DNA from: a candidate division WOR-3 bacterium
Lineage (GTDB): Bacteria; SDB-A
Assembly: GCA_016934535.1 (NCBI GenBank)
Contig: JAFGSQ010000032.1
Span: 1-9,171 of the forward strand
Length of the DNA: 9,171 nucleotides
Direction: 5' to 3'
The position numbers and the translations under genes are program-made. The notes below the pieces were generated by a model that saw nothing but the letters and a program-made list of their open reading frames with translations, had not been told where the DNA came from and ran no database searches. Positions 3,080-9,171 of this stretch are shown here, piece after piece (the stretch's first letter is position 1; each line of letters begins with the position of its first letter).

Positions 3080-3106
3080 TTTTTAACCTTTAAAAGTGAG
3101 GTACTG

Positions 3107-4141
3107 ATGAAATTTGCCCTCGCTCTCCTTTTAGCCGTTTCTCTGTCCGGATCGTTGTTCGGAGCCCAGAGAATGGCGGTCCTCGAAGAATTCACAAGTC
3201 ACACCTGACCTTCGTGCGCAAACGCCAGCCGTGAGCTGGATTCTCTTGCAGTTCAATACGCAGACTGCACTGCCGTCATCGCCTATTACATAAGCAACGG
3301 TTTACCATATTATTCGGCTGAAGGCAGGCAGAGGTTGAATTTTTACCCTCCGCCTTACTGGTATAACGGTTCGTTTGTTTACGCGACACCCTGGCTTTGG
3401 TTGGACGGAAACAAGGACCCCGGATACAGTTACTCTGGCTGGGAGACTTATTTGACAAACAGGCTGTCAGTCCCTTCCCAGCTCGATATAGACATGTACG
3501 CCGAATTCAACTCCCAAACGAACGCGGGATTCGTCGACATCTGGGTCTACAACGAAGGAGCGGACACACTCGTTAGAAAGCTAGTCTGCGTCCTCACTGA
3601 GTCGGGTCTTTATTATGTCGCGTCTAACGGCCTTCAGTGGCACGACCATGTGTGCAGGGATATGATACCGGACCAAAACGGGACGCAAATCACCCTTTAT
3701 CCCGGCGACACTACTTATGTCCACCTCGACTTCACCTTCGATCCGACTTGGGTGGCAGCAAACTGCGAAGTTTTGTGCCTGGTTCAGCACGATTCCCTGA
3801 CCGCCGACAGCATAAAGGACATCATGCAGGGAGGAAAAACTTCATTGGTTGCAAACGCTGTTGAAGAACAGCCCGTATCACTTCCCCGGGAATTCAAATT
3901 TTCAGTCTGTTATACAAACGATATCACCGTCGAATACGCCCTTCCGTTTGCCTCCCGTGTAAAATATGAAATAGTTGACGTATCAGGCAGAGTTCTTCAA
4001 ACGCGCAATCTCGGCGTCCAGAATGCGGGACAGAACTTTTTGAGAATAAACAGATCGGAAATCAATTGCTCTTCAGGGGCGGCTTTCCTGATAATGAAGA
4101 TAGACGACACCGAATACACTGAAAAACTTATTTTCTTTTAA
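3107..4141 (+). CDS. Exported Omp28-like thioredoxin-fold selenoprotein (in-frame UGA = Sec34)
   Basis: Read through the UGA at 3206-3208, the gene encodes 344 residues. GAGG at 3098-3101 supports the ATG at 3107. Residues 1-20 are a signal peptide, probably cleaved after LFGA. Next comes a beta strand MAVLEEFTSHT, then U34-P-S-C37 where thioredoxin folds carry CxxC. ATPW with P95 is the likely cis-proline, followed by LWLDG, as in Omp28 proteins. Residues 180-240 match the second half of that family (HDHVCRDMIPDQNGT; later W-x-A-x-N-C-E-V-L-C-L-V-Q). From about 250 to 344 lies a FlgD/T9SS-type C-terminal domain (EYALP, VDVSGRV), so the protein may be surface-sorted. Stopping at the UGA would leave 33 residues. 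The first start codon after it, TTG 3335, has no ribosome site and would remove the signal peptide and active site. The likely role is extracytoplasmic thiol redox chemistry. A pseudogene is the main alternative, but the intact frame and the hairpin argue against it. Confidence 0.85.
3206..3239 (+). promoter_or_regulatory. Bacterial-type SECIS element of selenoprotein A
   Basis: Downstream of the UGA, CCAGC (3225-3229) pairs perfectly with GCTGG (3235-3239) around the five-base loop CGTGA. The loop starts 21 bases after the UGA and has G as its second base, followed by U. This fits the published general bacterial SECIS model as I recall it: a short stem, a small apical loop with a G among its first two bases, and a distance of roughly 16-37 bases from the UGA. 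The bulged U that SelB contacts in E. coli fdhF is not obvious. The element lies inside the coding sequence, as in other bacteria. Confidence 0.75.
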
Positions 4142-4233: not shown

Positions 4234-5160
4234 TCAGAGAGGTCTGTTGAGGCTCCTCAGGCATTTTGCGAAAACATCGTCTCTTATTTTTCTTTCGAGA
4301 TGAGGAATGTTTCGCGGGACCCGGTTCAGATATTGAGCGATGTCTTTTCTTTTACTTGCAGTAAAATGAAGCGCGAGCCTGACGAAAAGAGCGCGGGCTC
4401 CGACAATTTCATTTCTGCGTTTGATTCCTTTTAAATCAAATACCGGAATGCCGGTTATCTTTTCTGTCATTTCGGCGACTTCGTCGAGAGTTTTGGTTTT
4501 TTCGGTCTGGATCACTATATTTCTGCCTTGTGTCCTTTTGACCTGTTCAATGAACTCTTCATTTCCAAGTATATTTCCGTCCGTCGATATATCTAATGAG
4601 AATTTATTTTCTTTGACCGCTGATTCCAAAATGTATTCGTTGTATTTTTTTATCGCGGCTTCAGGATCCGGATCGAACCTCGGCAATACTTTGTCTTTGT
4701 CAACGAGGCCGCTTTTTTCGGCGCTGATATAGGTTTTGTGAGAACTCCATTCATACAGAGAAGGATCTTGAACGGCGCCTGTCAACAAGCATTTCAAATG
4801 TATATAACTGATGAGAGAGAGCAATAACGACTCTTTGTCGCAAAGCACGGCTTTGTACCTGCCTTGAAACAGGTGTCCTTCTGTGTCGTGCTGTTTGTTG
4901 AACCATTGAGTATAAGACTGCATCAATCCCTGCATAATCCTCGATAGCGGAACCAAATCGGTTTCTATAAGCAAATGAAAGTGATTTTCGAAAAGGGAGT
5001 AAGCATAAACGGCAAAGTTGTATTTTTCCTTGTAATCTTTCAGCTTTGACAAAAACTTTCTTTTGTCCTCATCGTTAAGGAAAACAGGCGATCCGTGATT
5101 GCCCCTCGCCTTGACGTGATAAAGGGCTCCCGGGAATTCAATTCTTCTTTTTCTTGACAT
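4234..5160 (-). CDS. REP-associated tyrosine transposase (RAYT; IS200/Y1 family)
   Basis: A 308-residue single-strand DNA nuclease of the Y1 HUH superfamily. The N-terminal domain opens with RRIEFPGALYHVKARGNHG (5-23), has the HUH motif H60-F-H62 in ENHFHLLIETD, and carries Y83 in MQSYTQWFN as the likely nucleophile. GHLFQGRYKA (95-104) is a typical family signature. The C-terminal part (about 224-292, ending ASKRKDIAQYLNRVPRNIPHLERKI) resembles the DnaA-like helix-turn-helix found in a subgroup of these proteins. Such proteins nick and join REP palindromes and are usually single-copy chromosomal genes rather than active insertion sequences. No flanking IS ends are visible, and the only strong palindrome nearby is the terminator hairpin at 4149-4180. 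It looks intact. The ATG has no clear ribosome binding site. It ends with an ordinary UGA stop. Confidence 0.88.
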   Translation of the reverse strand: MSRKRRIEFPGALYHVKARGNHGSPVFLNDEDKRKFLSKLKDYKEKYNFAVYAYSLFENHFHLLIETDLVPLSRIMQGLMQSYTQWFNKQHDTEGHLFQGRYKAVLCDKESLLLSLISYIHLKCLLTGAVQDPSLYEWSSHKTYISAEKSGLVDKDKVLPRFDPDPEAAIKKYNEYILESAVKENKFSLDISTDGNILGNEEFIEQVKRTQGRNIVIQTEKTKTLDEVAEMTEKITGIPVFDLKGIKRRNEIVGARALFVRLALHFTASKRKDIAQYLNRVPRNIPHLERKIRDDVFAKCLRSLNRPL

Positions 5161-8332: not shown

Positions 8333-9171
8333 TTGAAGAAAAAAGTTTTGGTCCTCGGAATTCTCGGTGTGTTTCTATTGCCGATGATTCTTTCCTCGGC
8401 GGTCAGAAGACCGCTCCTTGAAATACACTCGGGAGCATTTTGAAGCGGATGCGCTTCATCTGCAGGTCTGCAGAATACTTTCATCTCGACAAATCAGGAC
8501 ACTCTGACAGCTCTCAAGTATCAGCTCTATTCAAATGAACCACTGTATAGCCCTGACGGTTGGGGAAGATTTCAGTTCTACGGGGATTCAGTAATTCCGC
8601 GCGCGAACATGGACGGAGCCGCCATGTTTTCTCCGACTTCCATCGCCACACTGAACTCTCAATACGCGACGGCAATGACAGTGCCCTGTTATGTTGATAT
8701 CTTGCTCCAGGGAACTGCTGAACCCGATCTCATGTCAGGAACACTGAACATAACAATAATAGCCGAACAGGAACCCGGAGCCAGCCCCTATTATCTGCAC
8801 GTGGCCGCTTGTTCTTACCATGTTCCTTATGGCGCCGGAAATTTTTCAGAATTTCATTATCCACTGAGAAAAATGTATCCGAATTATAACGGCACTGCCG
8901 TAACTTTTACAGGCGTTTACCCGGAAACTCTTCAGTTTAATATTCCTTTCACCTTTTCTTCCTCCTGGTGGCATTTCGAAGCTGACGACGTCTATTTCGC
9001 AGTGTGGCTTCAATCCAACAAAGCCACAGACAAACAAGTTCACCAGAGCAACATGATTGACATATCAGGTCTTAACGCCGTAGAGGAGACGCCTTCCTCG
9101 CCGGTTATGTCAAATACATTCGGACTCGGCAATTTCTATCCCAATCCATTCATCGGCACAGCCTTCATACC
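8333..9171 (+). CDS. Exported Omp28-like selenoprotein (in-frame UGA = Sec37), 3' end outside window
   Basis: The frame opens at TTG 8333 and, read through the UGA at 8441-8443, stays open for about 240 codons to the window edge. Residues 1-23 are a signal peptide (KKKVLVLGILGVFLLPMILSSA). A short strand RRPLLEIHSGAF leads to U37-S-G-C40, the place of CxxC. The sequence then parallels selenoprotein A: LKYQLYSNEPLYSPDG matches IAYYISNGLPYYSAEG, and VIPRANMDG (likely cis-Pro) matches ATPWLWLDG. YPLRKMYPNYNGTAVTF matches CRDMIPDQNGTQITL, and PFTFSSSWWHFEADDVYFAVWLQ matches the closing strand of the fold. Near the edge, NAVEETP followed by FYPNPF looks like the start of a T9SS/FlgD-type C-terminal domain. 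The likely role is extracytoplasmic redox chemistry. It is transcribed apart from pstS. Taken as a stop, the UGA would leave only 36 residues. Confidence 0.85.
8441..8474 (+). promoter_or_regulatory. Bacterial-type SECIS element of selenoprotein B (fdhF-like apex)
   Basis: TCTGCA (8459-8464) pairs with TGCAGA (8469-8474) as a perfect 6-bp stem capped by the loop GGTC (8465-8468), which starts 21 bases after the UGA. The 12-base core TGCAGGTCTGCA (8461-8472) is, from memory, identical to the apex of the E. coli fdhF SECIS hairpin, where the loop G and U bind SelB. The fdhF bulged U is not clearly reproduced, and the loop sits three bases further from the UGA than in fdhF. Confidence 0.85.

Follow-up and report, generated by a model that had tools for sequence, protein, structure and literature searches.

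An Omp28-like exported protein that probably carries selenocysteine at an in-frame UGA in a candidate division WOR-3 bacterium

We consider it very probable that the gene at 3107-4141 (+ strand) of the window, the 9171-nucleotide stretch of DNA from a candidate division WOR-3 bacterium analysed here, is intact, that its UGA at 3206-3208 is read as selenocysteine (Sec) by means of SelB, tRNA-Sec and a hairpin downstream, and that its product of 344 residues (counting the UGA as Sec) is an exported oxidoreductase joining a thioredoxin-like part to an Omp28 domain. Comparison gives strong support to the selenoprotein reading; from relatives we infer both the redox role and the route of export. 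The initial annotation had proposed an Omp28-like exported selenoprotein hidden by an in-frame UGA. The columns of the homologues, the hairpins and the sel genes support that proposal.

The open reading frame starts at an ATG (3107), 4 nt after a Shine-Dalgarno-like GAGGT (3098-3102, + strand), and ends at a TAA (4139-4141). The hydrophobic, signal-like N-terminus of the product, MKFALALLLAVSLSGSLFGAQ, and homologues with a similar N-terminus point to a signal peptide in codons 1-20 (3107-3166), which contains no Cys and hence no lipobox; indeed no Cys codon occurs ahead of residue 37. The only in-frame stop is the UGA itself (context FTSHT-U-PSC). It is residue 34 and takes the first Cys position of a thioredoxin-type motif, U-P-S-C, whose putative resolving Cys37 is encoded by TGC at 3215-3217 and belongs to a column that is invariant in alignments A1 and A3. 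Between the UGA and the terminator lie 310 codons. They include the Omp28 domain (PF11551; residues 93-230, 3383-3796), matched by the readthrough product with 41.6 bits (gathering cut-off 34.9), and a C-terminal sorting-like domain (residues 272-342, 3920-4132) that scores 15.7 bits with Por_Secre_tail, below the cut-off of 23. The initial annotation had read this region in the same way: a start codon with its ribosome site, then a signal peptide, one UGA on the first Cys of the motif and about 310 stop-free codons of Omp28 type.

Annotation routinely reports genes for selenoproteins as pseudogenes or fragments. Under table 11 the only open reading frame listed here is a 268-aa fragment from TTG 3335, exactly the truncated call that had been predicted for standard gene calling. 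It is this listing that speaks for the UGA being a true stop and the downstream fragment being the functional product, a possibility that we regard as extremely improbable: protein conservation is unbroken across the UGA, the invariant Cys37 falls between the UGA and the TTG, and a 33-residue signal-peptide ORF has no evident function alone. The mismatches that separate the gene from two orthologues, both with UGA, fall predominantly at third positions on either side of the UGA, and this excess indicates coding pressure before as well as after the codon.

The first of these orthologues (L020, 50% identity) was found in a search of 98 sampled genomes and belongs to another genus of the same family, the second (L049, 46% identity) came from a scan of genome contigs and belongs to an Eisenbacteria MAG. 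In each of them UGA occupies the codon equivalent to 3206-3208, and Cys follows three residues later. A profile of 19 Omp28-like members (A1), searched against 386 genomes, matched in 94 of them, at least 28 of which hold UGA forms. At the loci read out, UGA stands in column 34 and Cys in column 37 at 45 of the 45 distinct UGA-containing homologous sites (from the 28 sampled genomes plus one Eisenbacteria MAG), and the remaining family members have Cys in both columns (CxxC). Each of the matches listed is free of internal stops or contains a single TGA; TAA and TAG do not occur in them. With all UGA sites in a single column and neither TAA nor TAG among the matches listed, the placement of UGA is far beyond chance. 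Since Cys is found there wherever UGA is not, the pattern is, as judged from sequence comparison, one of Sec/Cys exchange, not decay. Random stops or frameshifts in relatives had been named beforehand as findings that would count against Sec; instead, Cys or UGA is aligned exactly at residue 34 in all family members examined. The sole apparent exception, L078 (G137:C176), has its UGA two codons after a Cys (CGUAAC) and a strong hairpin; it also reads as U-x-x-C once the alignment is shifted.

The same comparison bears on the idea that the gene is a pseudogene or the product of a sequencing error, with UGA 3206 arising by chance as a nonsense mutation or by misreading of TGC or TGT. TGA is one base away from a Cys codon and the assembly is a draft, both of which fit this idea. 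We nevertheless judge it very improbable and rejected it because independent genomes keep UGA at codon 34: the orthologues from another genus and from the Eisenbacteria MAG have it at the same codon, the 45 UGA sites share one column with no TAA or TAG among the matches listed, and hairpins are enriched in the UGA genes, as described in the following.

A bSECIS-like hairpin, CCAGC-CGUGA-GCUGG, is located at 3225-3239 (+ strand) and would direct insertion of Sec at UGA 3206. It consists of a 5-bp stem and a 5-nt loop, CGUGA (3230-3234), which lies 21 nt after the UGA and has G at position 2, followed by U. Bacterial SECIS elements are described as having a loop of 3-9 nt, a stem of 4-16 bp, a G among the first two nucleotides of the loop and a distance of 16-37 nt from the UGA (PMC13188914), and the hairpin is within all four limits. 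In single-sequence folding, its whole-fold energy showed no extra stability over shuffles (z near 0). We therefore compared UGA with Cys genes and count the hairpin as evidence only through its homologues. It is identical at the nucleotide level in L020 and L049. In seven related sequences it is fully paired, whereas slid versions are 0-40% paired and none of them fully. A compensatory change from G-C to A-U occurs in the stem of L080, L088 and L089 (one compensatory pair in all). A scan for hairpins of the bSECIS type gave a mean z of -2.36 for 45 UGA genes versus +0.04 for 34 Cys-column sites; the enrichment in UGA genes has a Mann-Whitney p of about 1e-8, with one of the 34 Cys-column sites left out of the test. 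A hairpin at SECIS distance, which the initial annotation had pointed out, is thus present, fits the published model and is of a type enriched in UGA genes. Taken alone, its support for Sec is moderate, because the stem overlaps codons that are themselves conserved. A scan of the hairpin region with Rfam gave no match except for a chance hit to mir-33. Two sister members of the family, L089 (Sec) and L073 (Cys), differ at this site: L073 keeps a hairpin-like stem with a loop that lacks GU, as expected if a change from Sec to Cys had occurred recently.

Decoding of UGA 3206 as Sec would require SelB and tRNA-Sec. Absence of selB and selC had been set out in advance as a finding against Sec; both are present in the same genome, together with selA and selD. 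In this assembly of 76 contigs, selA and selB are adjacent on contig C53, and tRNA-Sec (selC, anticodon TCA) is found at two contig ends, on C53 adjoining selA and on C71. The association extends to the sample. Among the matches listed, selA occurs in 27 of 28 genomes with UGA-Omp28 versus 15 of 34 genomes with Cys forms only (Fisher p 6e-6), the latter class being defined from these matches, so that a few of its genomes may hold weak UGA forms; overall, selA is found in 171 of the 386 sampled genomes. The one UGA-Omp28 genome without a selA match (G289) has selB over its cut-off.

Several genes of the source genome contain an in-frame UGA, as would be the case if the organism read UGA as Trp or Gly throughout. 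Such a change of the genetic code is scarcely credible. The other complete genes of the window are free of in-frame UGA and three of them terminate in it, the residue of the homologues at the site in question is Cys, neither Trp nor Gly, and the genome has the full Sec set. We rejected a code change because UGA serves as terminator and is absent inside most conserved genes of the source genome. Two further genes with in-frame UGA were noted in the course of this analysis. selD itself (L018, G000:C43:23941-24861) has one near the N-terminus (EKAGUAAK), which makes SelD of this genome a selenoprotein candidate. Adjoining selC on C71, an exported-looking ORF with a sorting-like tail (L001, 208-1395, G000:C71) has one at residue 90 (C-U-G-G) and is another candidate.

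Selenoproteins related to Omp28 have been catalogued before. Our literature search for Omp28 together with selenoprotein or selenocysteine returned no relevant paper; it was a match to the NCBIfam model NF045500 ('Omp28-related selenoprotein') that led to the known family. A 2026 review lists it as 'hypothetical protein GOS_C' with a UxxC motif (PMC13188914, Table 1), and the GOS_C selenoprotein was predicted in 2008 from ocean metagenomes (PLoS Genet, PMC2398784). The initial annotation, made without a literature search, knew of no described Sec-containing Omp28 protein; the novelty that this suggested does not hold. The protein encoded at 3107-4141 shares with NF045500/GOS_C the UxxC motif, a predicted thioredoxin-like fold and the Omp28 relationship. 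However, it scores only 20.4 bits with the NF045500 model (aligned with residues 21-230; curated cut-off 200) and is nearer to the non-seleno model NF033782 (Omp28 family outer membrane lipoprotein), although with 44.3 bits it is below the cut-off of 150 there too. The 43 UGA members scanned, this protein included, all stay far below the NF045500 cut-off (the best has E 4.5e-22), and the 386 sampled genomes gave no match above it. As the kind is catalogued, yet the protein and its UGA relatives score so far below the model, we place the protein in a variant branch of the catalogued Omp28-related Sec-x-x-Cys thioredoxin-like selenoproteins. With the NF033782/PF11551 family, that of Porphyromonas gingivalis Omp28 (PDB 2R2C, which our family profile matches), it has the Omp28 domain in common; it differs in having Sec for the first Cys and no lipobox Cys, as well as in its score. 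Bacterial Sec-thioredoxins and DsbA/DsbG-like selenoproteins differ in domain architecture and are not known to have an Omp28 domain or a sorting tail. They resemble the protein described here in that Sec lies N-terminally in a thioredoxin-type motif and in their use of SelB and a bSECIS (PMC13188914).

The product is predicted to consist of an N-terminal thioredoxin-like domain with the active site Sec34-Pro-Ser-Cys37, the Omp28 domain and the sorting-like tail. In the PDB, the family profile finds P. gingivalis Omp28, P. gingivalis HBP35 (5Y1A) and a large number of thioredoxins. With the single protein as query, phmmer returned nothing useful from the PDB, and a search of viral contigs gave no match. 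AlphaFold, run on a four-row alignment, produced a model of low confidence (mean pLDDT 40.9), too low to confirm the thioredoxin fold. HBP35 resembles our protein in being exported, in its length (about 344 residues), in its N-terminal thioredoxin motif and in its Omp28-like middle; it differs in having Cys48/Cys51 instead of Sec and in binding hemin, and the sequence similarity is distant. Recombinant HBP35 is active as a thioredoxin in vitro, which requires both C48 and C51 (PMC2907840). By analogy with HBP35, we infer for the product a role as an exported disulfide oxidoreductase of the Sec-x-x-Cys type. It would most likely act as an extracytoplasmic thiol/selenol-disulfide oxidoreductase, with Sec34 as the residue that attacks a disulfide and Cys37 as the one that resolves the resulting selenenyl-sulfide. 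An unlikely alternative is a genuine selenoprotein in which Sec has no part in thiol-disulfide exchange and serves instead to bind a ligand (heme or a metal) or to reduce a small molecule, peroxide for example. The family has no known substrate, and HBP35, a characterised relative, binds hemin besides its thioredoxin activity. Against this alternative, UxxC in the position of a thioredoxin-type motif is the arrangement classically associated with redox function. In HBP35, moreover, the hemin site is outside the CxxC motif (PMC2907840).

The C-terminal domain of HBP35 is needed for its transport to the outer membrane (PMC2907840), and the product of 3107-4141 likewise has a C-terminal domain. 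Its tail resembles type IX sorting domains, the tails of orthologues L020 and L049 score above the Por_Secre_tail (TIGR04183) cut-off of 23 (24.9 and 27.9 bits), and the source genome contains a gene for the SprA translocon, over its cut-off. These data suggest that the product is probably sent outward by type IX secretion and delivered to the surface.

The window contains a second Omp28-like selenoprotein gene (8333-9171, + strand), which starts with TTG and runs off the contig end. Its UGA (8441-8443) lies in FUSGC and is followed by a hairpin, TCTGCA-GGTC-TGCAGA, at 8459-8474. Of the further paralogues on C38, C49 and C43 (L052, L082 and L051), two carry UGA at the motif and one carries Cys. 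Counting the two genes in the window, the UGA-Omp28 genes of the source genome thus number at least four, besides one Cys paralogue. A tree of 75 members implies at least 14 changes between Sec and Cys, at least five of which are forced by well-supported branches; the protein of 3107-4141 groups with those of L020 and L049 (support 100/100). It is quite likely that Sec-containing Omp28-like proteins form a broad and largely unannotated superfamily that is exported and in part type-IX-secreted, often with several paralogues per genome and repeated Sec/Cys exchange, and that the members described here escape current curated models. Relatives from many bacteria, 3107-4141 included, are outside the NF045500 listing, and annotation would show them as fragments. 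If surface delivery holds true, poorly known bacterial lineages spend selenium on exported redox chemistry, and the many Sec/Cys pairs offer a direct route to what Sec buys an extracytoplasmic thioredoxin-like protein.

The surroundings of the gene recur in a genome of the same genus. Contig C63 of G002 (L021, L083) carries an Omp28 gene, g5495, g6165, a PstS-like gene and a second UGA-Omp28 gene in the same order as the window; the N-terminal part of its first Omp28 gene is beyond the contig, and the visible portion starts after codon 34. In the window, 4234-5160 (- strand) encodes an IS200-like Y1 transposase, whose C-terminal part resembles the DnaA helix-turn-helix domain with a score below the Pfam cut-off. 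The syntenic stretch of G002 has the same gene order without this transposase, which suggests that the transposase is a later insertion in the window.
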